Counted from the first letter of the stretch, positions 3,871 to 35,470 are shown. The stretch: 48,776 bases of DNA from Candidatus Woesearchaeota archaeon (GCA_016187565.1 JACPJR010000021.1:1-48776); one strand, 5' to 3'. Translations and numbers: made by a program. The notes: a model not told the origin generated them from the sequence alone.

Positions 3871-4314
3871 ATGCAACGCTACACGGTTATGAATAGCAAG
3901 GAAATCAAGGAACTGATGAAGGTTCTAGAAAAGGCTTATGGTTTCAGGGGAAAACTTGATTATGTTTCTCTGATGAATGAACATGAGCGAATTGTTTTAG
4001 TGAATAAAGAAGTTTTTAACGTAGAGCTTTCAAAACTGAAGATCGATGCTCTAGGGATGTATTTTGGTCAATATCATCATGGTACCTTACGCTTGAGCAT
4101 TGAAGGCAGTCAGTGTATTGGAGCACAGTGTACCCACCATATCGTCGAACTACAGAGTAAAGAAGTCGTGGATTGGATTCGAGGAAACGATATAGCCAAA
4201 GAAGCTCCTGAAGGATTTGTGCTCGTAAAGCATAATAACGACTTTTATGGGTGTGGTAAGGCAAAACAGAATGTTATTCTTAACTTCGTGCCAAAGGAAA
4301 GGAGGGTGAAATAG
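3871..4314 (+). CDS. PUA-like RNA-binding protein (RsmF C-terminal type)
   Basis: 147 residues. The second half (RLSIEGSQCIG near 75-85, VVDWIRGNDIA near 107-117, GFVLVKHNNDFYGCGKAKQN near 123-142, NFVPKERR at the end) follows the pattern of the PUA-like RNA-binding domain at the C terminus of RsmF/NSUN-type rRNA m5C methyltransferases. No methyltransferase domain is attached, so it is a stand-alone RNA-binding module, perhaps acting in trans in rRNA or tRNA modification (inference). A TATA-like ATTTTTAAATC near 3840-3850 places the transcript start at about this ATG, supporting leaderless translation; a second ATG lies six codons in. Its stop lies six bases from the convergent gene. Confidence 0.6.
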   Translation: MQRYTVMNSKEIKELMKVLEKAYGFRGKLDYVSLMNEHERIVLVNKEVFNVELSKLKIDALGMYFGQYHHGTLRLSIEGSQCIGAQCTHHIVELQSKEVVDWIRGNDIAKEAPEGFVLVKHNNDFYGCGKAKQNVILNFVPKERRVK

Positions 4315-4320
4315 AGTTCA

Positions 4321-6420
4321 TTATTGTGGTGTTACCAACGACGACAATGTTTGTCCTGCCCTTGCCATAACTGTTTGATAACGAACGCGTGCAGGTAAGG
4401 GGAATGATGCTGCATTTCTTTCATAGAACGCAGTCGTGTAATTTCTCAAGGCATGGAAACGATCAAGAGCTTCTCGATAATCTCCGGTCATGTCAGAAGA
4501 AGGTGTTTGCATCAGACGGGTATAGGCGTCAAGCGCACGGAGATGTGCAACGAGCCCAATCTGATGCTGTAAGCGAAGCTCAGGATAATTACTCTCTTCT
4601 CGCAGGTGAAGATCTTTGAGCTGTCCATCAAAATAATTACTGAGAAACTGTTCATTCTCACAAGTATAGGCAACATCGCTGCCAAATCGTGGATCATCAG
4701 TAAAGGCAATAACATCTGTATAAAGTATTCGAAGCGATTCAAGATTCTGTTCTAAAGTGTGTAAGCGTGCTTTTTGTGTTTGACAATGGGAACATTGGTT
4801 ATCTCGGTACATCTGCTCTGAGATTCCAGCAAGGCCATGTGCCTGTCTTAAGAGTCGTTGAATATGTTGTGTTGTTTGAATAGTATGCATATCAATCCCA
4901 TTTGCTTCACTGGATCCTGCAGGAGAAGATGGAAAAAAGGTCTCCAAGGGAAGCGTTAGGTAGTATTCGATGACCCGATTATAGCCTTGAATCATGCTGC
5001 ACATCTCTCTAGAGAACTGAGTTTTGTAGGCATCAGTTTTCTTTGCATCATATCCCAATTCCCTGTGAATGAACACTCCAAGGGCTTGATCAAAATCTGT
5101 AGGAGAAGCATTATGTGAACTCAATGATCGAAGGCGGCGAAAGATAAAATCAACAAGGCGATACTGTCGTTCAAGGACGACTTCCTCGACAGAAGGAAAA
5201 AAACATTCTGCTAAGAGTGCGTTCACCCTTTCTGCAACGCCTTCATAAAGAGGTCCATAGGTTTCATCTCTCATCAAGGTTTGCCAGGAAGCACGGGAAA
5301 GTCGATGATGGCCATTTGCTCCTAGAGCACTTATTGCGTGATTTGGCCAGTCACCCCATCTTACATCGATGGTAAATGGTCGCGGACCTAATGCCACAAT
5401 ACGATCATAACCCTCTGCATAGTCACGGGCATCAGCCTTCCATGTTCTTCCAGCAAGTGAAGGCGTAGGATCAGCACCGCTCCTAATACGATTCGCTTTT
5501 ACGCTTCGATAACGACCGCCGCCAAGGGCATCATTAATAACCCTTTCAACACCGATATTACTTCCTGGTTGTGAGTGATATGTTCGATGACCCATAGCAG
5601 CCACCCCAAGAATATCAGTAATAAAAACGTCATTCCATTCCAATGGTTTTGGTTCATGCGCCCCACTTCCTGACGGCAAATGATTAGGAAGTTGAGACCT
5701 AAGAAGCCCTGCAAGATGCGTAACAACCTTTTCGGTTATTTTTCTTGAAGTTTTAATACGGAGAACTGTTCCATCTAAAGGAGCATGCTTTTCATCAGAA
5801 CAACCATCAGCACAATGAATATCATAAGGCTCTCGCTTTCTTGTAAACATAGCCATATTTCGTGGAACGACTTGTCTGAGTTCAGTTACATAGTCAGCAT
5901 TAGATTGTGAAAAACGTTGGGGATACACAGGATGTACGTAAAAGAAGTCTCTACCAATTTTTTCAAGTGTTCTTAAATACGTTTGGTAAGAATCAGTAAA
6001 TCCTATGACTGCAGATGCGGAATTCCCAAAGTAATCAAGTGTTTGTTCAGCTCTTAATCCCCCTATGTCAAGCAGCTTATGACATAAATCATAAAAAGGA
6101 CCAACATGGGCAACCATACTCTCATCAAATGCAGTGACAAATGCAGCCTGTTCTTGTGGATCAAGTAACAGTATTTGATCGATACCATCAATCTCTTCGA
6201 GATGAACAGGGCCGTGCCTTGACTCTCTTCTTTGAGAACTATACGAAGCATCTAAGCGTCGTAAGGTACCAAGAATACCATCTGCAAGAGGTTTTGGGAG
6301 AGGATCTGCTAAGTGTTGTACAGATTCCAATGTTGCTCCTTCACCTAAAAAGCCTTCAAACATTAACTTAAGGAGATGTGGACTCGTTTCATGACTGTCT
6401 ACTATTGCCTCTTCTTGCAT
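4321..6420 (-). CDS. Orphan protein with a possible divergent RelA/SpoT-synthetase-like region
   Basis: 699 residues with no confidently recognised domain. The middle section reads like a degenerate RelA/SpoT nucleotidyltransferase: RIKTSRKITEKVV (221-233; compare the R-x-K-x-x-S-i-x-x-K motif), ITDILGVAAMG (267-277; compare D-L-x-G-I-R-I) and GYDRIVALGPRPFTIDVRW (337-355; compare N-G-Y-x-S-l-H and E-I-Q-I-R-T), then GANGHHRL (368-375; compare G-v-A-A-H-W). The Arg after D-x-x-G and the Glu of EIQIR are replaced (Asp352 in the latter), so activity is doubtful. The C-terminal 250 residues are helical, with a CSHC pair. The next gene upstream on the same strand (6629-8191) has an RSH-like HD domain, which raises the plausibility. 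A TATA-like AATTTAAATGA lies near 6463-6477 (minus). Confidence 0.5.
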   Translation of the reverse strand: MQEEAIVDSHETSPHLLKLMFEGFLGEGATLESVQHLADPLPKPLADGILGTLRRLDASYSSQRRESRHGPVHLEEIDGIDQILLLDPQEQAAFVTAFDESMVAHVGPFYDLCHKLLDIGGLRAEQTLDYFGNSASAVIGFTDSYQTYLRTLEKIGRDFFYVHPVYPQRFSQSNADYVTELRQVVPRNMAMFTRKREPYDIHCADGCSDEKHAPLDGTVLRIKTSRKITEKVVTHLAGLLRSQLPNHLPSGSGAHEPKPLEWNDVFITDILGVAAMGHRTYHSQPGSNIGVERVINDALGGGRYRSVKANRIRSGADPTPSLAGRTWKADARDYAEGYDRIVALGPRPFTIDVRWGDWPNHAISALGANGHHRLSRASWQTLMRDETYGPLYEGVAERVNALLAECFFPSVEEVVLERQYRLVDFIFRRLRSLSSHNASPTDFDQALGVFIHRELGYDAKKTDAYKTQFSREMCSMIQGYNRVIEYYLTLPLETFFPSSPAGSSEANGIDMHTIQTTQHIQRLLRQAHGLAGISEQMYRDNQCSHCQTQKARLHTLEQNLESLRILYTDVIAFTDDPRFGSDVAYTCENEQFLSNYFDGQLKDLHLREESNYPELRLQHQIGLVAHLRALDAYTRLMQTPSSDMTGDYREALDRFHALRNYTTAFYERNAASFPLPARVRYQTVMARAGQTLSSLVTPQ

Positions 6421-6628
6421 ATACTTTCACGTCATTCTCTTGTTTTGTTTCTGGAGTTTCTCATTTAAATTATTTACCTACACCTTTTGTAAACTGCTCG
6501 TGAGGCGCAAAAGATTACATATTTAAACATGCTGACAGATGGATGTCACAAATGTATGTTCTTGTTTGATATCAGTCAGGTAATCATGAATACTTCCCAA
6601 ACAATACTTCCCAAACTAATGGAAGAGC

Positions 6629-8191
6629 TTACTGTGAGGAATCATGAATATGACGGGCTTGGTCAGTGGTAAAGGTGAATTGGGGAACATACCAGTGATC
6701 ATCGCGGATTCTTTCAAGGATTCGGTAAAACGCGAGTGCCATTTTGTATCGCTGATGCCTTACCTCAACACGTGGAGGATTTCTCGCGAAATCAAGGGCA
6801 ATAACCGAAAATGCGCCGAGGATGCCATCAAAGTGATCGCCAAAATAACGATAGATCCCCATTCTTTCTGCAGTCTCTCCTTGAGTAGTAAGCCCATTGA
6901 GTCCACCCGCATCTTCATAGGCACTTAATGCATGTTGATACATTACCCTTCGTGGCCAGGACGTATGATTCTCCTCTCGCTTGAGGAATTGGTCTAAGGT
7001 GTCCAAACTTGCCTCCAAGAGTTCCCGATAATGGGGAATTTCTGATAATCGAGAAAAGTCACGTTGAATAACTGCTGCGCGAGCTTGATAACATCCCTTT
7101 GCTAGGCCTAAAAGGTAAATATTCTTAAAAAAATTAAAAAGTTGTCTCACTTCATCAAAAGCATCACCATTCGGCTGTCTACCCGTATAGGTTGTCCTCA
7201 TGGTTCGTGTATTTCGTGCACGGTCGATGAACTTAATCATTTGAGCATCACGGTGGATTGCAGGGGTATATTCCGTTGAAGGAAAAGAATAGACGTCAGA
7301 TGCAGATTCTCCCATCGCTAAACGGTGTTTTCCACTGTCAAAAAGTCTACCACCATAGGCAAAATAATTCATACTATGCGGAGCCGTTTCAAGGTCAACA
7401 ATTGGACCAATCTTTCGGATTTCGTCCCGTAATGCTGCTCTCTCACTATCTGAAAATTGAACACCATCTGCACGTATGCGGGGTGAATCTAAGCACCCCT
7501 CCAAACTGTTCATAAGAGTCTGTAACGTAGTATAAACAGAATGACGGGATTGCTGTTCATAGCGCTGTCGATCAGTCTCAGGAATTTTCCACCAATGCTG
7601 TGGGATAAGCTTGTTTCCACTCGGCTTCTCCCTCCATGCATAATGACCATCTCGTAACATTTGGTCACGGATAGTTGTTTTGGTCGTCTCTTCAGGGAAA
7701 TCATGATTTAAGCCACCCAAGAGAAGAGCAAGTTGAGCGGGCTGCGGTCTACCAGTATAGTCAACAATGCCCAAACGATATAATAGATGAAAAACCTCAA
7801 GGGGATGCCGGATGAAAAAAGAGGGTGAGGTCTTTAATTCTTTAAAGCCGTGTCCGACAATAGCACCACCAATACCATAGCGGAGAAGTTCAACCTCTGC
7901 AGGAGTATATCGCTGGTCAACACTAGGAGCTACTTCTTGTAAAATAGCCTCTGTTGCCCCAACAATAGAATCGCTACATAAAAAATAAGGAAGTGTCTCA
8001 TCAAAAGCAATATATTTAGAAAAAAACTCGGTTTCATGGGGAGTACCTTCTGCTACGACAAAAGACGGTCTACGACCATATTGTCGCTCAGCTTCAGTCA
8101 AAATAGCCCTTATATGGGTATCTATCGTCGGAAGATGCAGACTTCCGTAAGATTCTCTTTCCTTATCAGCAATAGTTGTTTGAGGAGACAT
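6629..8191 (-). CDS. RSH-like HD-domain hydrolase (SpoT/MESH1-type motif set), paralogue A
   Basis: 520 residues. It shows the ordered metal-binding motifs of RelA/SpoT-homologue HD hydrolases: RHPLEVFHLL (H129; compare Y-x-x-H-P-x-x-V-A), LNHDFPEETTKT (H163, D164, E167, E168; compare L-L-H-D-x-x-E-D-T) and IKFIDRARNTRTM (D323, N327; compare K-L-A-D-R-L-H-N-M-R-T-L). The gap between the second and third motifs is about 90 residues longer than in bacterial Rel. A paralogue lies at 13697-15292 with a matching C terminus (YEDAGGLNGLTTQGET here). If active it would hydrolyse (p)ppGpp or a similar phosphorylated nucleotide. The TATA box GATTTATAAGG (8217-8227, minus) implies its own near-leaderless transcript. 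Confidence 0.55.
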   Translation of the reverse strand: MSPQTTIADKERESYGSLHLPTIDTHIRAILTEAERQYGRRPSFVVAEGTPHETEFFSKYIAFDETLPYFLCSDSIVGATEAILQEVAPSVDQRYTPAEVELLRYGIGGAIVGHGFKELKTSPSFFIRHPLEVFHLLYRLGIVDYTGRPQPAQLALLLGGLNHDFPEETTKTTIRDQMLRDGHYAWREKPSGNKLIPQHWWKIPETDRQRYEQQSRHSVYTTLQTLMNSLEGCLDSPRIRADGVQFSDSERAALRDEIRKIGPIVDLETAPHSMNYFAYGGRLFDSGKHRLAMGESASDVYSFPSTEYTPAIHRDAQMIKFIDRARNTRTMRTTYTGRQPNGDAFDEVRQLFNFFKNIYLLGLAKGCYQARAAVIQRDFSRLSEIPHYRELLEASLDTLDQFLKREENHTSWPRRVMYQHALSAYEDAGGLNGLTTQGETAERMGIYRYFGDHFDGILGAFSVIALDFARNPPRVEVRHQRYKMALAFYRILERIRDDHWYVPQFTFTTDQARHIHDSSQ

Positions 8192-8230: not shown

Positions 8231-8710
8231 TCACTTTTTGGTGCTAAAATTCCAGTGCTTGTCTCCTACAAAGTGAAGATTACGGATGATCTTTCCTTCG
8301 GTGATGTTTTGAAATTCCTGCCATGCGTACAGTGCTTTGCCAATTGCCAATGGTCTACCATGATTTTGATCAATGATAGTTACCATATCGTCCTTTACGA
8401 TAGCTGCATCCGCTGTAGTAATGCCTGGTCGCATAATATCTGCACCATTCGCAACAAACTTCACCGCACCCATATCTATGGTTACGGTCTTCAAGAAATT
8501 GCTCTGCAAGACGAGTTTAAGGCTCGGAATCAGTTCTCCCTGTAGCCAAAAAAAAGCCACATTGCCATCAATAAAAAGATAGGTGTCTCCGATTAATTCG
8601 ATAACAACATTCTTGTCGTATTTATCAAAAAAATCTTGGAGTCCATAACGTGTTGTAAGAAGCGTTTGCAATTCTTTGAGTTCTTTTTTTCGCAAACGAA
8701 GACGTTTCAT
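8231..8710 (-). CDS. PUA-domain protein, MCT-1/Tma20-like
   Basis: 159 residues. The C-terminal 80 residues form a PUA domain: VTIDMGAVKFVANGADIMRP near 74-93, GITTADAAIVKDDMV near 96-110, RPLAIGKAL near 118-126. The N-terminal half resembles the pre-PUA domain of MCT-1/Tma20 and archaeal relatives (COG2016 type), which bind the small ribosomal subunit or tRNA during initiation or recycling. The ATG overlaps the TGA of the preceding DUF371 gene as ATGA, so the two are translationally coupled. The promoter of the next gene overlaps the end of this one. Confidence 0.75.
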   Translation of the reverse strand: MKRLRLRKKELKELQTLLTTRYGLQDFFDKYDKNVVIELIGDTYLFIDGNVAFFWLQGELIPSLKLVLQSNFLKTVTIDMGAVKFVANGADIMRPGITTADAAIVKDDMVTIIDQNHGRPLAIGKALYAWQEFQNITEGKIIRNLHFVGDKHWNFSTKK

Positions 8711-9102
8711 AATGGAACAATCCTCACCGTCATTTTCGCAGTTGCATTCTGGAGTTTTTCTACGAACGCTCTCTTCAGATCAATGGCAGCTTTGGTAGCA
8801 TGAATGGCAAATGTTCTCTCGGAGGTAAACGCACTTTTTCGAATGACCATTTCAGTAGGACTCGTAAAGGAAGCATGATACTCAGCATGTATCTCTTCCT
8901 CGATATCCTCAAGGGAAAGCATCAGTTTTATTTTCTGGAATGACACGGGAGGTAAATGAATGGGAAACTGAAAATTCGCACGAACGCCGATAATACACGT
9001 GCCTCGCACCGTCATCTCTCCTTCTTTGGTAAACTCAAAGGTCGTTGAATGTGTCGCACGGATATGGGGATGACCCCAACAGTGAAAGACCATCATGTTC
9101 AT
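8707..9102 (-). CDS. DUF371 family protein
   Basis: 131 residues matching the archaeal DUF371 family (COG2090): HCWGHPHIRATHSTTFEFTK near residues 7-26 and RGTCIIGVRANF near 33-44 are the family signatures. The function is unknown. The family is small and broadly conserved in archaea. It overlaps the PUA-protein gene by 4 nt, so the two form an operon and a role in RNA or translation is plausible by association. The start could also be the third or fourth Met codon (MVFHCWGH). Confidence 0.8.
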   Translation of the reverse strand: MNMMVFHCWGHPHIRATHSTTFEFTKEGEMTVRGTCIIGVRANFQFPIHLPPVSFQKIKLMLSLEDIEEEIHAEYHASFTSPTEMVIRKSAFTSERTFAIHATKAAIDLKRAFVEKLQNATAKMTVRIVPL

Positions 9103-12816: not shown

Positions 12817-13710
12817 ATGCACATCACGTTTTTGGGCACGAGTTGTATGGTGCCAACCAAAGAACGGAATCATTCAGGGATCTTCTTAGAGTATGGTGCA
12901 GAAGGAATTCTCGTAGATTGTGGTGAAGGAATCCAACGCCAGATGAAGATAGCAGACATCAAACCAACGAAAGTTACCAAAATCCTCATCAGTCATTGGC
13001 ATGGTGATCATGTCCTTGGTATTCCAGGACTCATGCAGACCTTGGCATCATCAGAATATGGAAAAACCTTGCAGATCTATGGCCCTAAAGGAACAGAACA
13101 ACATATAGCGGCTATGTTCAAGGCATTTCTCTTTGACTGTAAAGTAGCGTTACAGGTTCATGAAGTGAACGAAGGAGTTATTATTGAACAGGATTCTTTT
13201 TCCGTTACTGCTTTACCGCTCAAACATGGTATTCCCTGTCTTGGTTTTCGATTCATAGAAGCTGATAAACGACGAATCAAAGTAGCTGCAGTGAGAAAGC
13301 TTGGCATTCCTGACGGTCCACTCTTAGGAAAACTCCAGGACAACAAGTCGATAACCTGGAAGGGAAAAACCTATTCGCCAGAAGAGCTTACCTATCTTGT
13401 CCCTGGGAAAAAAATTGCCTTTGTCATCGACACCGAATACTGCGCAAATGCCATTACCCTTGCCCAAGATGCAGATTTGCTTATCTGTGAGGCATCGTAT
13501 ACAAGCAACCTTGAAGAGAAAGCAAAGGAATACCATCATTTGACAGCCAAACAAGCAGGATTGATTGCAAATCGGGCAAATGTCAAAAAATTGATTTTAA
13601 CTCACTTCTCCCAACGGTATAAAACAACCCAAGAGATTGAAGAAGATGCCCGTGACGTTTTCACGAATGTTAGCTGTGCCTATGATTTCATGAAGGTCAA
13701 AACTGTTTAG
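12817..13710 (+). CDS. rnz: Ribonuclease Z (tRNA 3' endonuclease)
   Basis: 297 residues, the short RNase Z form. The metallo-beta-lactamase motif HWHGDH (H60, H62, D64, H65) and early GTSCMVPTKERN are typical. LPLKHGIPCLGFRF near 132-145 and FVIDTEYC near 205 supply further metal ligands and the HST-loop region. It removes 3' trailers from pre-tRNAs so that CCA can be added; neither tRNA gene here encodes CCA. The Shine-Dalgarno GGGGAGGAGG precedes the ATG. Its 3' end overlaps the convergent HD-protein gene by 14 nt. EndA is encoded divergently just upstream. Confidence 0.92.
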   Translation: MHITFLGTSCMVPTKERNHSGIFLEYGAEGILVDCGEGIQRQMKIADIKPTKVTKILISHWHGDHVLGIPGLMQTLASSEYGKTLQIYGPKGTEQHIAAMFKAFLFDCKVALQVHEVNEGVIIEQDSFSVTALPLKHGIPCLGFRFIEADKRRIKVAAVRKLGIPDGPLLGKLQDNKSITWKGKTYSPEELTYLVPGKKIAFVIDTEYCANAITLAQDADLLICEASYTSNLEEKAKEYHHLTAKQAGLIANRANVKKLILTHFSQRYKTTQEIEEDARDVFTNVSCAYDFMKVKTV

Positions 13711-15292
13711 AACGAAGGTGTGCAATGGTCACTTCTCGGGGGACATACAGACGGGGTCGATAAAACCTTTCTTCTTCAATTTTCTCTGCCATCCGCAAAA
13801 AGACAATGGCATCCTTGTACAACTGACGCGTGTTGCTTGTACTTGGGGTTTCTCGTGCAATGTCCCGTGCAAGGACAGCATATGCAACAACGCGTGCATC
13901 AAAATATCTGCCAATTCTGGCTTCAAGAGGACGCCACCAGGGAAAGAGTGTTTCGCCTGGGTCTGTTAATTGATCAAGACCACCTCGCGCTTCATACTCC
14001 CTCAGAGTGTGATGATAGACAGGACGCCGGACAAAGCCCAATAACCCAAGGTTACCAGAAGCAGAGGTTACAAATGCAGACAACGCCTCTTTTGTTACGC
14101 GAAGAAGCTCTCTATAGTATGGTCCTTCAGGATCCAGATCAACAATTGACTGGGCTTCAGTAGGAATACGAGGTGCATAGTGCTGCAATGCTTCGGTTAA
14201 AAAAACAAGATTCTTGAAACCATTGAGAACCTGGCGTGCTGGTGCAAAGGGTTTGATTTTATTTGCTCGTCGATGATCTTGAGCATCAGGGGGAGTATAG
14301 AGCTGAACTCCTGGAGGAAGACCATATCCCAAGAGTGTTGCTGTATTATCAGCCCTGTCTAAAGGCTTTGCCATCTGGGCCCGTTCAAAAACAAATGATG
14401 TGTAGCCTCTTCTATCTAAGGCATAGAGGTATTCTGGATCAACGTTATCTCCCTGAGCTAAGCCATCCCATCTCCGTGAGGTATTGTACAACCGCAAAAA
14501 GTAGGTAAAATAGTCAGCATGCCATGGCCGTGTCATTAGATCGAGCACATAGGGAAGGGCTTTTATCCCACGATTAACCTCTCGCATGGTCTGTAGGAGA
14601 GCTCGAGGAACCTCATGGGCGTCATAATCTTCATATCCACAATCCCTGTAAAATTCTGGATCTTCTTTAATATTGTCACGAAAATCTGAAGCAATAGCCT
14701 CGAGCCATTCTTGGATTAATTCCTTTGTCTGCCGCATATAGACTCGTTGCTCTGCTTCTGGAAGATCATGCAGACTTTTTCCTGGTTTTTCTCGAGAAAA
14801 ACGCTGCTTCATGACCTGTTTAACGTGATCCTCAACAACATCGTGCGTTTCAAGTACTGCAGTAGTTAACCAATCAGCTCCTTTTAAGGCAGACAATCTC
14901 CCTGTATCAAAGTGGTGCTGCGCATATAAAACACGAGCATCTGTTTTCCTGGTGTCCCATCCAGGACCGAGGATACCATAGAGCATGGCGAGCTGAAGCG
15001 CATCACGCTGCTGCCCACTATACTGAAGTGGAGCATCCTGAAGCAATAGTGTTGTCAGTTCATCAAGAGATTCACGATAGACATCATTATCACCACGAAG
15101 TTCAAGAAAATTCAGTCTGCCAAGGACAACTGCTCCTTTTGATGTGCTTCCTCCATCTCCGGGATAGACAAGGCCCAGTCGATCAGTTTCCTGAAGAATA
15201 GCCGCAAAGCAACGATGGGTTGCACGAAGAGTTTCTAGACGATCCACGACACACATCTCCAACAAGTGCTGAACAGCAGGAATTGTGCTCAT
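13697..15292 (-). CDS. RSH-like HD-domain hydrolase, paralogue B
   Basis: 531 residues, paralogous to the product of 6629-8191. It has LETHDVVEDHVK (H150, D151, E154, D155), almost identical to the HDVVEDT signature of SpoT/RelA hydrolase domains, and KPLDRADNTATLL (D312, N316), matching the K-L-A-D-R-L-H-N-x-x-T-L motif. Upstream, YAQHHFDTGRL (H125/H126) may supply the first metal ligand. The C-terminal segment YEARGGLDQLTDPGET aligns with paralogue A. It probably hydrolyses a phosphorylated nucleotide; the substrate is unknown. TATA GTTTATATATTC (15307-15319, minus) lies just upstream. Confidence 0.55.
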   Translation of the reverse strand: MSTIPAVQHLLEMCVVDRLETLRATHRCFAAILQETDRLGLVYPGDGGSTSKGAVVLGRLNFLELRGDNDVYRESLDELTTLLLQDAPLQYSGQQRDALQLAMLYGILGPGWDTRKTDARVLYAQHHFDTGRLSALKGADWLTTAVLETHDVVEDHVKQVMKQRFSREKPGKSLHDLPEAEQRVYMRQTKELIQEWLEAIASDFRDNIKEDPEFYRDCGYEDYDAHEVPRALLQTMREVNRGIKALPYVLDLMTRPWHADYFTYFLRLYNTSRRWDGLAQGDNVDPEYLYALDRRGYTSFVFERAQMAKPLDRADNTATLLGYGLPPGVQLYTPPDAQDHRRANKIKPFAPARQVLNGFKNLVFLTEALQHYAPRIPTEAQSIVDLDPEGPYYRELLRVTKEALSAFVTSASGNLGLLGFVRRPVYHHTLREYEARGGLDQLTDPGETLFPWWRPLEARIGRYFDARVVAYAVLARDIARETPSTSNTRQLYKDAIVFLRMAEKIEEERFYRPRLYVPREVTIAHLRSKQF

Positions 15293-18484: not shown

Positions 18485-19399
18485 GTGGTAGGAGTCTCAT
18501 CGGGAATAAGAAATTTGGAAGGTTTTGCACAGAATGATATATTCAATTCTTACAGGGGAAACACAGATCACCTTAATGAGAAACTTAGACAAGCTCTCAT
18601 AAATGATTTGAGACTCGACGCTACAGAACAAGTCGTTCATGTAGCATTAAGTGGAGGGATTGATTCCTCGCTTGTAGCAGGAATCCTAGGCATAGAATTA
18701 GGCAAAGATATATGGGCCTACACTGTATGCGATTATGAATCACCTGATATGGGTTATGCAAGACTAATGGTCGATTTCTTGAGAGAAAGGGGTGTGAAAG
18801 TCCATTGGACTGCAAAGCCATTGAGTCGTGAGGAACAGAAGATTGATTATGCATTGTTAGAAGAACAGTTAGGCATTGACCCAAAAACAGTCAGGGGTAG
18901 TAGAACCTGCTGGCAAATACTCTATGGCTGGTTAAACAGACTCATTTCTCCCCATGAAGGATTTAAGATAGTAACGGGTGATGCAGCAGATACTCTCATG
19001 GGATCTCATACTGTTCAGAAACCAACAAACGTAAATGAGCACCCTCATTATTTATTAGTTGAACCAACTGAAGACCGAGAAAGAGATTTGATAGCAGCTA
19101 TGAGATTAGGGGACAGAAAAGCTGCACTTCAATACTACAGATTAGTTGAAAGGACAGGTTTATTTGTTCAAGAGGAGAGGTATTCGAGATATTTTAGTTT
19201 TGAACCATGTAGTCCATTCTTCAGTAGAGAGGTGATGCTCGTTTCATTAGAATACGGCTTAGATGATCTGGTTGATGATACGGAAATAAAGAAACCGTTA
19301 AAATATATTTCTCGGACATACGGATATGTACCTCCTGAGATAATTCAACGCCCTAAATATGGTCTTGCTCTTTCAGTTATGCCTCAATGGGCGAGATGA
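18485..19399 (+). CDS. Stand-alone asparagine-synthase-type ATP-pyrophosphatase
   Basis: 304 residues. The PP-loop VALSGGIDSSLVAG (S56-S62) and IVTGDAADTLMGSH near 162-175 are the hallmarks of the asparagine synthetase C-terminal domain, which adenylates a carboxylate for amidation. No N-terminal glutaminase domain is present, so it would use free ammonia, a separate partner or another nucleophile. PKYGLALSV near the C terminus resembles the KxxLR-type end region of AsnB. The GTG at 18485 is favoured by the TATA spacing; no in-frame ATG lies upstream. The convergent neighbour is an orphan protein. The substrate is unknown. Confidence 0.75.
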   Translation: MVGVSSGIRNLEGFAQNDIFNSYRGNTDHLNEKLRQALINDLRLDATEQVVHVALSGGIDSSLVAGILGIELGKDIWAYTVCDYESPDMGYARLMVDFLRERGVKVHWTAKPLSREEQKIDYALLEEQLGIDPKTVRGSRTCWQILYGWLNRLISPHEGFKIVTGDAADTLMGSHTVQKPTNVNEHPHYLLVEPTEDRERDLIAAMRLGDRKAALQYYRLVERTGLFVQEERYSRYFSFEPCSPFFSREVMLVSLEYGLDDLVDDTEIKKPLKYISRTYGYVPPEIIQRPKYGLALSVMPQWAR

Positions 19400-19436: not shown

Positions 19437-20003
19437 TTACTTCAATGGAGCAAAGGCTCGTTGTAATCTTTCTGCATTTGGTTCTTGAATAGGCCTTCCC
19501 CATCGTTGCTCGAGTTCTGCTCGCTCTTCTAAAGAAGGACATCTATATACCTGATCTTCTCCATTAGGAGAAACAGAGATGTGTCTCTCTTGAATTTCAT
19601 GATCAAGCGTAAAATAACGGCTAGGTTGCGGTGATAACCGAAGTGATTGTTCGCTAGGGGCATTGGGAACAACAAGTACAGCTTGGTAATGGAGACCACT
19701 CTCTTTTTGATTTCCGTCATCTATAAGTCCTAAGGTAACATAAGAGCCCTTCCTTAATCCACTGTAAAATTGTTTTGCTAGGGAATCAGATGGTTCACGC
19801 ACATGGATGTAAACATCATCCCATACTACAAACGGCCCTTTATCTCTAGTAGGGTGTGGACCATCCAGAAGTTCAACATCTCGAAGAACCGTTCCTCTCT
19901 GCAAATGTCTCCACGGATGATGAATTTCCCGGCGTGGACGGTATTCTGCTCTATGGCTATGTGGATCATGTCCTGGTCCTTGGTAAAGATGGTGTTCTAT
20001 CAT
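19437..20003 (-). CDS. Orphan protein of unknown function
   Basis: 188 residues, rich in His, Arg, Pro and Asp, with no recognised domain. The N-terminal 40 residues are His/Arg-dense (HHLYQGPGHDPHSHRAEYRP). The middle looks like alternating beta strands (GPFVVWDDVYIHVREP, GSYVTLGLIDDGNQ, YQAVLVVPN), and the end is helical. TATA GCTTTATAAAG (20026-20036, minus) places the transcript start at the ATG (leaderless), which supports a real gene. It converges on the asparagine-synthase-like gene with a 37-nt gap, so the two are not an operon. Confidence 0.55.
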   Translation of the reverse strand: MIEHHLYQGPGHDPHSHRAEYRPRREIHHPWRHLQRGTVLRDVELLDGPHPTRDKGPFVVWDDVYIHVREPSDSLAKQFYSGLRKGSYVTLGLIDDGNQKESGLHYQAVLVVPNAPSEQSLRLSPQPSRYFTLDHEIQERHISVSPNGEDQVYRCPSLEERAELEQRWGRPIQEPNAERLQRAFAPLK

Positions 20004-20318: not shown

Positions 20319-21029
20319 ATGAAAAAAACACTCAAAAAAGTATGGACAAAAGAGACCATTATCTTAGCAAGCATATTCCTTGTTATTGTGTTAGTGTATC
20401 TTCTGATTAATAGGATCCCGAGTGTTCATGAAGCTCTCAACAATTTTAATCAGTTGTTAGTCGAAAAACTGGTTGCGTATGGCATTCTCGGTTCCTTTAT
20501 TATAAGCATTGTTGCAAATGCTTCGTTAATCCTCCAGATACCCTATTACCCAGCCATCATATTCCTTGGAAGTCAAGCACCTAATTTTGGCTATCTCCTC
20601 TTGCTGACGCTTGTTTCAGGTGTTGGTATGATGCTTGGCGAGATCATTTCTTACCTTATAGGAAGGGGTGCAATTTGGGTGATAAAAGCAGGAAAAGATA
20701 AACGAAGCTTTAGGCATATCCAAGAGGTCATTGCACATAAACCAAAATTAATCCCGTTTCTGATCTTCCTCTTTGCCTGTACACCATTACCAGACGATCT
20801 GATCATGATCCCTCTAGGGATGATAAACTATGACATCAAGAAGATAATACTTCCCTCATTGCTTGGTAAAACACTCTTAGCAGGGATCTTTGCATTCGGT
20901 GGCTTCTATGCGTATCAATTGTTTTCTCGTTTTATGCAAACCAACATTCTTGAAGGCTCATTCTTATTATTATTGTTTACGGTATTTGTGATAATAATCA
21001 TCTATAAAAATGAAGTAAGTTCTTCATAA
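20319..21029 (+). CDS. DedA/SNARE-associated (VTT-type) membrane protein
   Basis: 236 residues with about six hydrophobic segments. The DedA-family core is visible: the amphipathic entry near IPYYPAIIFLGSQAP, GVGMMLGEIISYLIGRG near 107-121, then FLFACTPLPDDLIMIPLGMI near 150-169, with the conserved Pro/Asp re-entrant loop. Such proteins act in lipid scrambling or undecaprenyl/polyprenyl phosphate recycling; the substrate here is not known. TATA GTTTATAAATTG (20286-20297) gives a leaderless start at this ATG. Confidence 0.8.
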   Translation: MKKTLKKVWTKETIILASIFLVIVLVYLLINRIPSVHEALNNFNQLLVEKLVAYGILGSFIISIVANASLILQIPYYPAIIFLGSQAPNFGYLLLLTLVSGVGMMLGEIISYLIGRGAIWVIKAGKDKRSFRHIQEVIAHKPKLIPFLIFLFACTPLPDDLIMIPLGMINYDIKKIILPSLLGKTLLAGIFAFGGFYAYQLFSRFMQTNILEGSFLLLLFTVFVIIIIYKNEVSSS

Positions 21030-21067
21030 TGAGATATCTTTATAAGATCATACATTATTTCTCAACC

Positions 21068-21463
21068 ATGATCGTTGATAGAACACAAGTAAGTCTCGAG
21101 GATGTTCTTTTTAGACTAGCGGCATTAGCACAACTCAGAGACAGTCCGCAAAGAGCAGACCGGAAACATGCCGATGCTGTTTTATATAACATAGTATTGC
21201 CAGGCTTACGAGCATTCGTTGAAGATGAAAGCCATGGTTTTGAGATAGAAGAGTTTCAGATCAGTGGTGATGTTGTATCGGCTCTGGCACATAACCATGA
21301 TCCTTCTAGTGAGATTCCTACGAGAGTAAATTATTTAGACACCTTTCAATACCTGTATGAAAGATTACTTGATTATAATCAGAACCAAGCAGCATGTAGA
21401 CTTGCTGAGTTAGGTGCACGAAGTTTGAGGAGATCTTATGTAAGTTCATCCCGTCTATTTTGA
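21068..21463 (+). CDS. Orphan protein of unknown function
   Basis: 131 residues from the ATG at 21068 (MIVDRTQVSLEDVLF). A longer version from 21029 would overlap the DedA stop, but TATA TCTTTATAAG (21036-21045) predicts a transcript start near 21066, so the inner ATG is preferred and leaderless. The product is acidic, helical and without known domains (VLFRLAALAQL, VVSALAHNHD, FQYLYERLLDYN). It converges on another orphan at 21499. Confidence 0.5.
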   Translation: MIVDRTQVSLEDVLFRLAALAQLRDSPQRADRKHADAVLYNIVLPGLRAFVEDESHGFEIEEFQISGDVVSALAHNHDPSSEIPTRVNYLDTFQYLYERLLDYNQNQAACRLAELGARSLRRSYVSSSRLF

Positions 21464-21498: not shown

Positions 21499-22065
21499 TT
21501 AAAACCCTCGTAAGACATTATCGATCCAATGTGATTGAGGGGCTGCACGGCGCTGTTGCATAACCGTAGCGTAACCCATATACTCCTCGAGCAAGGCAAT
21601 ATCTGCCAATTCTTCGTTGACTTCTGGCCTGTATCCCTGTCGTAGTGCAGTGGCAAGATCCTCAGGCAGCGTGAACTCTTTCATCCTCAGTCCAGGAACC
21701 TGCATGCGTACATCATAGTCCCTTCGCAAACACTGGAAGAGCCCGAAAACCTCTGCTTCAGGAAGTCCAGAACAGGCAAGATCATATACCAGAAGGTCAA
21801 TAAAACTTTTCTTCATCTCACTGAATGCCCATGGAGTCGGAGAATGCACTAACGCAGCACGACGCCCAGGAAATTGGTGTATACCCTCAGGCATCCATCC
21901 ATCATAAGACCGTAGTATCTCAACAACAGTATACAATCGCTGCCAGACCCCGACAGGAAGAGGAAGTTGATCTCTTCTCGAAGAACTATGCCAATATTCG
22001 GCTTCTGTATCAGGAACACATGCTGCGAGGCGTTCAAGATCCAACGGTCGATAATGGTGATCCAT
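21499..22065 (-). CDS. Orphan protein of unknown function
   Basis: 188 residues, helical, rich in Arg, Leu and Gln, with no domain I recognise. Recognisable pieces include DLERLAACVPDTEAEYWHSS at the start and KKSFIDLLVYDLACSGLPEA in the middle. TATA CGTTTATATAGATT (about 22114-22127, minus) lies upstream and shares a spacer with the divergent AAA gene; a 9-bp inverted repeat (ACGTTTGTA at 22124-22132, TACAAACGT at 22218-22226) frames that spacer. Confidence 0.5.
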   Translation of the reverse strand: MDHHYRPLDLERLAACVPDTEAEYWHSSSRRDQLPLPVGVWQRLYTVVEILRSYDGWMPEGIHQFPGRRAALVHSPTPWAFSEMKKSFIDLLVYDLACSGLPEAEVFGLFQCLRRDYDVRMQVPGLRMKEFTLPEDLATALRQGYRPEVNEELADIALLEEYMGYATVMQQRRAAPQSHWIDNVLRGF

Positions 22066-31588: not shown

Positions 31589-34033
31589 TTACCTTATTGG
31601 TGGCGTCCAGCCAGGAAGATCTGTTCCTCGAGAGTTGTAATCATGCACTGGTCGTCGTACTCCTTTACTCAGGAGGACCTCAAAACCCGTTACCCATGGA
31701 TTGATACCTGGATCTAAAGCGTCTCTACATTGCGCTCCAATCTCTGCTGTTGTCGACGGATGTCCGAATTGAAGGTTGGTAAGCGCGGCTGAATAGGGCG
31801 GACTTTTTGCTAACTGCCGTGCTGCTTCATAGGAACGTACAAGAAGTTCTTGTTCAGTTGCAAAAACTCCATGAACCAATCCTAATTGATGAGCCCGTTC
31901 TGCAGAAACGCCGAGATGGATAACCTCCCGTGCACCTGACTCACTGATGAGCTCGTTTAATCGCCTCGCACCATTATACCCCATTAAAATACCCAATCCC
32001 TCTTCGGGTTGGACAAATGCTGGTCGATGGCCCCAGTCATTTCTTCCAAAGGCTTTATCATAGAACGCTCCGTGGTTGAATTGCATAAATCGAAGATCGA
32101 AAAAATAGGATACTTCAGCACCACCACCCCAGAGTTCTTTACCAGCAAAGACTGTTCGAATTGGCGCTTGTCGAAGCATTTCAAACGTTTCCACTCCATC
32201 CTGGGCAATTCTTCTTCGTCCTTCACTATCCATAGGTCTATACCCAACTGCAGGATCATACCACCCTACATTAAATGCATTGGCATCAGCTCCCATCATC
32301 TTGCCACCCTTTGGATAAAAGAGCATGGCACCAATAGTTCCATTTCGATACATTTCAATGGCATGTTCCACGATATGCCGAAACTGATCCATGGATTCTG
32401 GATTCCAGACATTTCCCCGTAAGGGATTATTAGCAAGAACCACAAGGACACGATCTCTTTGAGAAACCATAGTTTCAAAATACGCATACGAGGGTCTCAT
32501 CTCACCAGTACGAAGATCTCGTTCCTCAACTGGCGTGCCATTGAGATGTCCATAGCCAAGGAGGCTTCGCCAGCCACGGTGTTGCATCGTCATAAGGAGT
32601 GAAGGCGTACCAGTCCGAGGTCCTGTTTCTCCGCGGACATCATAGAGGCCTTCAGCAACCCATTCGTGGTTTTCACTGGCTGCTCGATCAGCAAGCGCAA
32701 CAAAACCATCAACACCACCATGTGCCAGAAAGCCATCAACGACTTCGACAAGTCCATGCTTGAATTTCAATCCAACTCTCGTGGAGGTATTCACCTGACC
32801 TGGCGTGCCAAACCCCTCTTGGATCATATCAAGACCGTAGAGAAGTACTGGGATAACATACCTCCTGAAGGTCTTTCCTCCGTCATCATCAGCATGCGCA
32901 ATATGTCGCAAAGCATCAACACTCTTAATTCTTCCTGCTGCATGATCAGCTGCTTCTGCGTGTGCATAGGAAGCAAAGGCACGAGCATCTATTCTTGGAA
33001 TAGGAACGTATTCAAAGGTATCCGGATTGAAAACAGCAACAGGTTTTCCGTGCTCCCACTTGAAGAATCCTTCACCGGTTCTACTCGCTGAACCTGTTTT
33101 TCTCTCGCTCTCAAGCCATTGTATCCAATCGGGATACGCAGCTCCTTCAGGTCCCTGATACCACGTACGAAGACGATCATGTTCAGGCAATGCAGCCCGC
33201 ATATGTCTTGCAGATTCAGTATAGGGCATATGACCGGTGTTATCTAAAACTTGAAATGGATTGGTAGTAAAATGACCCCAAACCCCTCCAAGACTAACAA
33301 TATCACGTCCTGATGCAACATAACAACTTGGACCTGCTGCCATTGCCTCAAATAAGGGATCGGTCAAAAAACCATGATGTTCCCGAGGAAGACGCATGGT
33401 ATTTTTCTCAAGAACCTGTGCTGCAAGCAACCATGCTACTCGATAGGTTAGTTCACTGGTCTCAGGGCCTTTCATGACATCAATGAGGGCATTGCCATGA
33501 AACGGAAAATAACCATGCACAACGGCAAACCGTTCACGAAAGCTTCGATCAGAAAAAAGCCCTGCAAGCTCGCTCGTCAAATGAGAAGAGGTATTCGAGA
33601 AAACAGCAACAAGTTGTCGAGGGTCTGCATACTCCTGAATACCAGAAAATACCTGACGCTTGATACCTTCGCGTTCTGTTGCAACCTCCCAGATAAGATG
33701 TTTATCGCTTAAGGTTTTATAGTCGGTTGTGGTTACTACTCTCCCTTGTAAGCGTTCTCGTAATGCTGAAAGTTCGTGTTGGCATAGCTCGGTGAGATCA
33801 CCTTTCACTGAGGTCATCTTTCGGAATGTAGCATCTAATGTGCTCTGTGCCCGTGCAAGAGCCTCTGCTGAAACATCATAGAGGGTTATCTCCCAAGGAG
33901 TTTTCTCAAGCAGAAGTTGGGCAAGTCCTGTTCCCATCGTTCCTGCACCAATAATAGCAACTCGTTGAATGCGCTCTATTTCACGAACAGCATCCTCAAG
34001 TGATCTATCCCCAAATGCAAAAGCAACGCCCAT
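31589..34033 (-). CDS. 3-hydroxyacyl-CoA dehydrogenase / enoyl-CoA hydratase fusion
   Basis: 814 residues from the ATG at 34033. The N-terminal NAD domain (RVAIIGAGTMGTGLAQLL near 23-40; VVHGYFPFHGNALIDVMKGP near 170-189 with the catalytic His) and the 3HCDH C-domain (HGFLTDPLFEAM near 224) come first. A C-terminal crotonase follows, with AMLFYPKGGKMMGADANAF near 567-585 and LWGGGAEVSYFFDLRF near 635-650, plus Glu in PEEGLGILMG. Together these do the hydration and dehydrogenation steps of beta-oxidation. The start is chosen because GGGAGAGGTGGG precedes it and the ATG begins one base after the thiolase stop. Confidence 0.88.
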   Translation of the reverse strand: MGVAFAFGDRSLEDAVREIERIQRVAIIGAGTMGTGLAQLLLEKTPWEITLYDVSAEALARAQSTLDATFRKMTSVKGDLTELCQHELSALRERLQGRVVTTTDYKTLSDKHLIWEVATEREGIKRQVFSGIQEYADPRQLVAVFSNTSSHLTSELAGLFSDRSFRERFAVVHGYFPFHGNALIDVMKGPETSELTYRVAWLLAAQVLEKNTMRLPREHHGFLTDPLFEAMAAGPSCYVASGRDIVSLGGVWGHFTTNPFQVLDNTGHMPYTESARHMRAALPEHDRLRTWYQGPEGAAYPDWIQWLESERKTGSASRTGEGFFKWEHGKPVAVFNPDTFEYVPIPRIDARAFASYAHAEAADHAAGRIKSVDALRHIAHADDDGGKTFRRYVIPVLLYGLDMIQEGFGTPGQVNTSTRVGLKFKHGLVEVVDGFLAHGGVDGFVALADRAASENHEWVAEGLYDVRGETGPRTGTPSLLMTMQHRGWRSLLGYGHLNGTPVEERDLRTGEMRPSYAYFETMVSQRDRVLVVLANNPLRGNVWNPESMDQFRHIVEHAIEMYRNGTIGAMLFYPKGGKMMGADANAFNVGWYDPAVGYRPMDSEGRRRIAQDGVETFEMLRQAPIRTVFAGKELWGGGAEVSYFFDLRFMQFNHGAFYDKAFGRNDWGHRPAFVQPEEGLGILMGYNGARRLNELISESGAREVIHLGVSAERAHQLGLVHGVFATEQELLVRSYEAARQLAKSPPYSAALTNLQFGHPSTTAEIGAQCRDALDPGINPWVTGFEVLLSKGVRRPVHDYNSRGTDLPGWTPPIR

Positions 34034-34034
34034 C

Positions 34035-35345
34035 TTACCCACCTCTCCCAGCAACTCGTTCATATAAAATTGCTGTTGCCTGACCCCCACCAATACAAGC
34101 TGTTGTTAGCATTCTCTCAGCGTTTTGCCGCAAACCTTCATAAACTGCATCGACCGAGAGACAAAGTCCGGTTGCTGCCAGGGGATGGCCCATGGCAATT
34201 GCTCCACCATTCGGATTTAGTTTGTTATCAGGTATCTGAAGTAATCGTTGTACTGCCATGACCTGGGGAGCAAAGGCTTCATTGATGTACACAAGATCAA
34301 TCTGCTCCATGCTACACCCGCTTTTATCAAGGAGCGCTCGGAAAGTTGAAACTGGAGCAAGACCCATTCTTTTTGGGTCACAGGTTCCTTCAGCATAACC
34401 AGCAATCTTATAGGCATAGGAAAGTCCTAAGCTGTCTGCATAGTTTCTTTCCATAAGGACCATAGCTGCACCAGCATCACTGATTTGTGAGGATGTTCCT
34501 GGAGTAAAGAGCTTCATTCCCGGAAGGGTTCGTTGTGCAGCAAGCATGGCTTTGGTAAGTGTTGTATTCACACCCTCATCCCGCCAGACAACAAGATGAT
34601 TCCCTTCACGATCAGTATAATCAACAGGTGCGATCCCTGCAAGATAAGCAGCAAGGTCAAATCTATCCAGCGAAGGCTCATGACGGTTCCATTGACGCTC
34701 TTGTGCATAACCAGCACGTCTATGACTTTCAAGCGCATATGCTTCAGTTTGCTCTCGGGTAAGCCCTGCTTCTTGCCCGACTAAATTTGCTGTTTGTGAC
34801 ATCCGCGTATCAAACGCAAGATGTTCTAAACTTAACCAGATAGCATCTCCAGAGCCGGTACTCACGATGCGTGCAGGAAATCGTTCCTTTGTTGCATTCG
34901 GAACACTTGGATGTTCAAAAGTCCACACATCCTGAACGGTTCGATTTGCTAAATTCGTCAATGGAGCTCGGGTCATATTCTCTCCGGCAACTGCAATAGC
35001 TGCCTGATCTCCAAGAAGAATATCTTTATACGCAGCAACAATTGCCTGAAATCCAGTGCCACAGATTTTTTGGACGCCATACGATGGAGCATCAGGAACT
35101 CTTAATCCGTGCGCAACATTAACCGTGTAGATCTGCTGAAAATCAGGATCTGGATAAATCTGCAGTCCCACAATAACCTTATCAATACTACCTTGCCATT
35201 CTCGAGGAGCTATGCCTGTTCGAATGAGTGCTTCAGTGCCAGCAAGGATGGCTAGCTCTTGTGCAGAAATATGTCGATAGTAACCACCATGTTTTCCAAT
35301 GGGCGTGCGTGCAGCGCCAACAACAACCACTTCCCTCTCACTCAT
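34035..35345 (-). CDS. Acetyl-CoA C-acyltransferase (thiolase)
   Basis: 436 residues from the ATG at 35345 (MSEREVVVVGAARTPIGKHG), selected by GGAGGAGG five bases upstream. The active-site Cys is C95 in VQKICGTGFQAI. The second-half motifs NPNGGAIAMGHPLAATG (His) and TTACIGGGQATAI (Cys) are intact. It cleaves 3-ketoacyl-CoA or condenses two acetyl-CoA. The fused dehydrogenase/hydratase gene follows directly (one base between stop and ATG), making a beta-oxidation-type operon. TATA GGTTTAAATAGA (35391-35402, minus) drives both. No acyl-CoA dehydrogenase or ligase is present here. Confidence 0.92.
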   Translation of the reverse strand: MSEREVVVVGAARTPIGKHGGYYRHISAQELAILAGTEALIRTGIAPREWQGSIDKVIVGLQIYPDPDFQQIYTVNVAHGLRVPDAPSYGVQKICGTGFQAIVAAYKDILLGDQAAIAVAGENMTRAPLTNLANRTVQDVWTFEHPSVPNATKERFPARIVSTGSGDAIWLSLEHLAFDTRMSQTANLVGQEAGLTREQTEAYALESHRRAGYAQERQWNRHEPSLDRFDLAAYLAGIAPVDYTDREGNHLVVWRDEGVNTTLTKAMLAAQRTLPGMKLFTPGTSSQISDAGAAMVLMERNYADSLGLSYAYKIAGYAEGTCDPKRMGLAPVSTFRALLDKSGCSMEQIDLVYINEAFAPQVMAVQRLLQIPDNKLNPNGGAIAMGHPLAATGLCLSVDAVYEGLRQNAERMLTTACIGGGQATAILYERVAGRGG

Positions 35346-35390
35346 AAGAACCTCCTCCATCGTGTTGCTGGATGTTATCTCCCAGGAGAT

Positions 35391-35402
35391 TCTATTTAAA
35401 CC
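35391..35402 (-). promoter_or_regulatory. TATA box for the thiolase operon
   Basis: GGTTTAAATAGA on the minus strand, about 50 nt before the thiolase ATG, giving a leader of about 25 nt that includes the GGAGGAGG site. Confidence 0.5.
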
Positions 35403-35470
35403 TTTTCTTTTTGTCGTCGATAATTTCGTCATCAATTGAGGACAAAACCAGATAAATAATCACAACACCT

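Follow-up and report, generated by a model that had tools for sequence, protein, structure and literature searches.

A RelA/SpoT-type HD gene and its probable, strongly diverged synthetase-like partner in a hypervariable slot of archaeal chromosomes

Do two adjacent and strongly diverged genes of an archaeon form a RelA/SpoT homolog (RSH) system that is divided between two proteins, and what might such a system do? The question is raised by a 48,776-nucleotide stretch of DNA (Candidatus Woesearchaeota archaeon, GCA_016187565.1, JACPJR010000021.1:1-48776; hereafter, the window), which is contig 21 of a 35-contig, 1.94-Mb archaeal genome. RSH domains transfer pyrophosphate from ATP to a 3' hydroxyl, and remove it again. 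A preliminary description of the window had proposed that gene X (P0001, 520 aa; 6629..8191, minus strand) encodes an RSH-type HD hydrolase and that the adjacent gene Y (P0002, 699 aa; 4321..6420, minus strand) contains a worn synthetase core, each gene with its own promoter. Both open reading frames were recovered at these positions on the minus strand, all of the quoted motifs were found in the translations of X and Y, and TATA-like boxes could be read from the sequence 5' of X and of Y (TTTATAAG, ~34 nt upstream, and TTTAAATG, ~49 nt upstream, respectively). Neither protein matched a TGS or ACT domain, and the HD and synthetase parts are two genes, not one chain.

By its conserved residues, gene X, which comes first in the pair, belongs to the RSH-type HD proteins and resembles the pyrophosphohydrolases. 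The ordered set of ligand and active-site residues, H...HDxxE[ED]...KxxDRxxN, is present in X and is invariant or nearly so in an alignment of 15 homologs collected by profile search. H129, the first metal-ligand histidine (HPxxV; 7805..7807, minus strand), is invariant, and so are H163, D164, and E167 of HDxxEE (H163-D164..E167-E168, HDxxED in RSHs; 7688..7705, minus strand), D323 of KxxDRxxN (D323..N327; 7211..7225, minus strand), and Y276, K320, and K356; N327 is conserved in at least 90%. Hence, each residue that had been picked as diagnostic of an HD hydrolase is conserved among the homologs, N327 nearly so. We compared X, its paralog in the window (531 aa; 13697..15292, minus strand; 28% identity, E=4e-28; no adjoining partner) and one homolog with canonical RSH HD domains by hhalign. 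The comparison gave a probability of 92 (E=6.5e-7), with ELKTSPSFFIRHPLEV of the X side correctly registered against QKRTSGEEFFIHPVKV of the RSHs, and a further collinear segment covered DRxxN. Canonical RSHs were also retrieved, at E ~1e-10 to 1e-6, by a profile built from seven HD proteins, namely both window paralogs and five from other loci. The AlphaFold (AF2) model of X is confident and all-helical (predicted local distance difference test [pLDDT] 78.6, predicted template modeling score [pTM] 0.86). H129 starts a helix, the HD dyad follows the end of the next helix, and D323 and N327 lie in a long later helix; in the model, this placement is that of HD proteins.

Direct searches with P0001 and P0002 yielded nothing in Pfam, NCBIfam, PHROGs, PADLOC, phage records, viral contigs, or genome contigs, and nothing significant among PDB sequences. 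P0001 did not match HD_4 above the curated cut-off and, used alone, found no homolog in a sample of the phylum. By contrast, two other genomes of the order yielded homologs to a profile of the two window paralogs, and the profile enlarged by these homologs matched 69 of the 353 genomes of the order, including both ~400-aa solo HD proteins and long RSHs with HD_4, RelA_SpoT, TGS, and ACT domains.

Next, we asked what adjoins X in related genomes. A search for DUF371 was made, and ~80 neighborhoods were then read. The relatives have a single slot, in the order DUF371, (PUA), X, Y, and then the convergent genes RsmF-PUA and IF2, and the HD gene comes first wherever both genes of the pair were recognized. 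The X proteins of two syntenic loci (L122 and L102) pass Pfam HD_4 (28.2 and 27.7 bits, cut-off 27.2), and other syntenic X proteins match spoT_relA models at E 2e-7 to 1.5e-10. Six Y proteins of sister loci are RelA_SpoT by Pfam (65.4, 59.4, 59.0, 54.8, 41.2, and 38.1 bits; cut-off 27). A core profile built from six such Y proteins found canonical RSHs at 5e-20, as well as further Y proteins, while the best reversed-sequence decoy reached 0.18. On these profile matches, Y of the sister loci is a RelA_SpoT protein. The proposal that an RSH-type HD gene lies beside a separate, very diverged synthetase-like gene is thus supported by synteny, and the split-pair reading can be extended to the window because the syntenic loci have both halves in recognizable form. 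Adjacent genes for a synthetase and a small alarmone hydrolase (SAH) occur at the sister loci; for the window, the same statement hinges on what Y is taken to be.

Window Y belongs to a subfamily of five proteins, the other four of which (from genomes G083, G220, G198, and G435) adjoin an HD gene at the same locus. A profile of these four partners retrieved window Y at E 7.7e-6 to 2e-5, whereas the next best non-member was at E 0.14 and decoys started at 0.1. The locus of G435 equals the window in layout and sizes (RsmF-PUA, a 698-aa protein, and an HD protein of 531 aa). Five residues, R221, K223, K231, D269, and D352, are invariant in the subfamily. R221-I-K223 (5752..5760, minus strand) would be the counterpart of the GRxK ATP-site motif, D269 in ITDILGV (5614..5616, minus strand) that of the first catalytic Asp, and D352 in FTIDVRW (5365..5367, minus strand), which aligns with the ExQIR strand, that of the catalytic Glu. 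RxK, the catalytic Asp, and the second acid therefore occur in order, with Asp in place of Glu; the GYxSxH strand is poorly discernible. A profile-profile comparison of the subfamily with RelA_SpoT was collinear but weak, scoring 28–29 against no more than 24 for column- or block-shuffled decoys (above 150 of 150; P-value 0.004). The earlier call of a synthetase core thus gained a set of invariant residues, while the profile match is weak and the fold is a matter of inference. Its reading of a synthetase strand through GYDRIV did not hold, as the second catalytic acid falls on D352, within IDVRW, when the subfamily is aligned; an assignment of Thr at the position of the catalytic Glu was likewise dropped in favor of D352. 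Collectively, these alignments suggest that window Y probably has a strongly diverged synthetase fold, and, with Asp substituting for the catalytic Glu, it may be active.

The pair diverges far faster than the genes around it. Relatives that are 65–85% identical in the flanks share only ~25–30% identity in the HD protein and its partner. Within one family (six genomes), the flanking genes have median identities of 68% (DUF371), 78% (RsmF-PUA), and 77% (IF2), whereas X reaches 30% and Y 25%. The two genes also part company: in G345 and G241, X is 84% identical and Y 34%; in G343 and G182, X is 54% identical and Y has no significant similarity; and in G345 and G344 it is Y that is 39% identical while X has no similarity. 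As judged from these sequences, X and Y are exchanged independently of each other at a fixed, hypervariable locus. In a census of 65 distinct loci (HD genes tagged partly by motif; two loci fetched twice were entered once), the slot held an HD gene with a second gene in ~24 and was empty in 21, and the rest held single or unrecognized genes.

How do these features compare with those of known systems? Operons of toxic small alarmone synthetases (toxSAS) with SAHs (faRel/aTfaRel; related FaRel2, PhRel2, and CapRel) likewise have separate, adjoining RelA_SpoT-type and HD genes. A further likeness is that faRel is flanked by an SAH antitoxin which acts on the product and neutralizes toxSAS products promiscuously (PMC11782079). 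Unlike these operons, the pair is archaeal and sits in a fixed chromosomal slot with the HD gene first; moreover, its proteins are hypervariable, mostly larger, and exchanged independently. Long RSHs (Rel/SpoT, HD_4+RelA_SpoT+TGS+ACT), present in about half of the order, contain the same two types of catalytic domain, but the pair consists of two genes at another locus, is far more divergent, and can coexist with them. Single-function HD or synthetase RSHs (Mesh1, pbcSpo, divRel, RelQ) were described by Atkinson et al., 2011 as SAHs and small alarmone synthetases (SASs); the few known from archaea are solitary (PMC3153485), whereas the genes here are paired in a conserved neighborhood. Three sister Y proteins match the PADLOC candidate defense family PDC-S33 (E 3e-8 to 1e-6); the match is limited to the shared RelA_SpoT core, and X and Y of the window have none. 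In two model archaea, (p)ppGpp was not detected (PMC8646023). Searches of open-licence papers turned up no account of an archaeal RSH locus that is paired and hypervariable.

We favor, at roughly even confidence, the view that X and Y form one two-component unit of the RSH superfamily, a toxin-antitoxin or defense module like the toxSAS/SAH operons. In such a module, X would be the SAH-like first gene and Y the SAS-like, synthetase-fold second gene; Y, or its ancestor, would use ATP to pyrophosphorylate a nucleotide, or the end of a tRNA, at the 3' position, and X, as a metal-dependent HD hydrolase, would remove the pyrophosphate again. X would then neutralize the product instead of binding the toxin, and partners could be swapped because X acts on the product. 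In the slot between DUF371/PUA and RsmF-PUA/IF2, the two genes are replaced independently and diversify rapidly. For the window, the synthetase fold of Y is inferred, as are catalysis by either protein, its substrate, and the toxin-antitoxin or defense role. A broader version, which we hold more tentatively, is that of an order-wide conflict locus. Here, each lineage would have its own pair of a pyrophosphate writer (Y) and eraser (X), taken from a large pool, with independent reshuffling at a single slot; the pairs would serve in abortive infection or in symbiont-host/virus conflict by modifying a component of the translation machinery, either a nucleotide or a tRNA. If the module exists, archaeal RSH chemistry goes beyond long RSHs acquired by transfer and the occasional solitary gene. 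A single DPANN-type order would then possess, besides ordinary long RSHs, a split RSH system that evolves much faster than the genes around it, and an orphan protein pair that no profile library names would gain an explanation. For asking whether pyrophosphorylation serves archaea as a weapon or as an immune effector, pairs that could be expressed are found at L147, L148, and L142, where they are clear, and in the window, where the pair is remote.

Several observations weigh against the module. Searched directly, window Y matches neither PF04607 nor any RelA_SpoT profile significantly, and its AlphaFold model lacks confidence (pLDDT 38.6); because that model failed, the synthetase call for window Y is probable, not proven. 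Foldseek, run with the model of X against the PDB, returned nothing significant and no RSH, only chance all-helical matches. The structural comparison proposed in the preliminary description therefore succeeded as far as a good model of X, but no significant fold match followed and the model of Y was unusable. Partners, mostly of 340–965 aa, are larger than most toxSAS toxins. Lastly, the window genome has no canonical RSH match (neither PF13328 nor PF04607), and genomes of family f33 have only weak or locus-borne RelA_SpoT matches, such that the pair may be the sole RSH system of the window genome and of f33.

This last point bears on the strongest alternative, namely that X and Y are a housekeeping, split stringent response that makes and degrades (p)ppGpp in place of a lost canonical RSH. 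The HD and synthetase functions are complementary, f33 genomes combine the pair with RelA_SpoT matches that are weak or lie at the locus, and the lack of any other RSH match in the window genome lends this alternative some weight. Canonical RSHs are not rare here, contrary to what had been assumed for archaea: RelA_SpoT exceeds the Pfam cut-off in 167 of the 353 genomes of the order (~47%), mostly in long RSHs of 630–690 aa, and 41.7% has been reported for Woesearchaeota within DPANN (PMC8407392). Against the housekeeping reading, at least seven genomes with the pair (G067, G135, G080, G083, G220, G435, and G118) have a strong canonical-type match elsewhere. The pair is also absent from 21 of 65 loci, and X and Y outpace their neighbors in divergence and swap independently. 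Coexistence with a canonical RSH, absence from many genomes, fast divergence, and partner exchange together argue for a conflict module, and on our analysis a hypervariable, swapping locus would point to toxin-antitoxin or defense at least as much as to an alarmone role. We therefore favor the toxin-antitoxin or defense module and consider a housekeeping role rather unlikely.

Less likely still, X might be the sole enzyme, a MESH1-like phosphohydrolase, and window Y a degenerate, non-catalytic synthetase fold acting as a regulatory or targeting subunit. All ligands of X are intact, while in the window subfamily the catalytic Glu is replaced by Asp, the Gln and Arg positions are altered, and one copy is truncated (442 aa, in-frame stops). 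Nevertheless, very divergent members all retain R221/K223, D269, and D352, and this speaks against a complete loss of selection on the active site. That X is some other kind of HD phosphohydrolase and window Y an unrelated orphan placed there by chance would agree with the empty library searches and the lack of a significant fold match, but it is improbable given the KxxDRxxN and HDxxE[ED] pattern, the hhalign match of X to RSH HD domains (E 6.5e-7), the retrieval of window Y at E ~1e-5 with four syntenic partners, and the equivalence of G435 to the window in layout and length.

The flanks of the pair are conserved. An arCOG04150 PUA protein (8231..8710, minus strand; Pfam PUA 4.8e-19, TIGR03684) lies 39 nt upstream of X, followed by DUF371 (8707..9102, minus strand; Pfam 4.8e-30). 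On the other side, an RsmF-type PUA domain protein (3871..4314, plus strand; Pfam 6.5e-12) is convergent with Y and is the same neighbor in most loci examined. Genes of archaeal type in the window include those for ribosomal protein L15e, TYW3, DUF371, the arCOG04150 PUA protein, and a tRNA endonuclease. Among ordinary, Lys-rich archaeal genes are scattered Lys-poor, Arg-rich ones, mostly of low GC content at third codon positions (4321-8191, 13697-15292, 18485-19399, 19437-20003, 21029-21463, 21499-22065, and 31589-35435): the X/Y pair, the X paralog, three orphans, an asparagine-synthase-like gene, and a FadB-like/thiolase pair. This class may be foreign or part of a genome-wide pattern of two populations. 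The ratio K/(K+R) of X and Y was below that of the flanking genes in 23 of 23 pairs examined.

The X paralog retains the H, HD, E, D, and N ligands in a 15-sequence alignment. A two-sequence alignment had suggested that its first His was missing; this was rejected, as the larger alignment places the residue in YAQHHFD. Related to X is also the conserved family of ~400-aa solo HD proteins (L013:5531-6754 and L044-L061, family f10), which for the most part accompany a canonical RSH in the genome and are often encoded close to a gene for a TatD-type hydrolase; it is a candidate archaeal SAH family.

At the slot itself, several variations were noted. The truncated window-type Y copy (L174:3275-4603, G220) lies beside an intact HD gene, that is, Y alone has decayed. 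Large genes in or near the slot at L104, L109, L111, L116, and L121 were set aside because their sequences look unrelated (a VWA-type protein, a helicase, a DNA polymerase, an aminoacyl-tRNA synthetase, and a secreted protein). Elsewhere, the slot is held by a single synthetase-like gene of ~370–380 aa and no recognized HD gene (L129:3074-4180, L131:5533-6657, and L146:6661-7809). In family f33, a third gene of ~190–215 aa often lies 3' of Y (L145, L148, L099, L151, and L161) and is a possible third component; L012 has a DUF3419-like gene of 279 aa downstream of Y instead.

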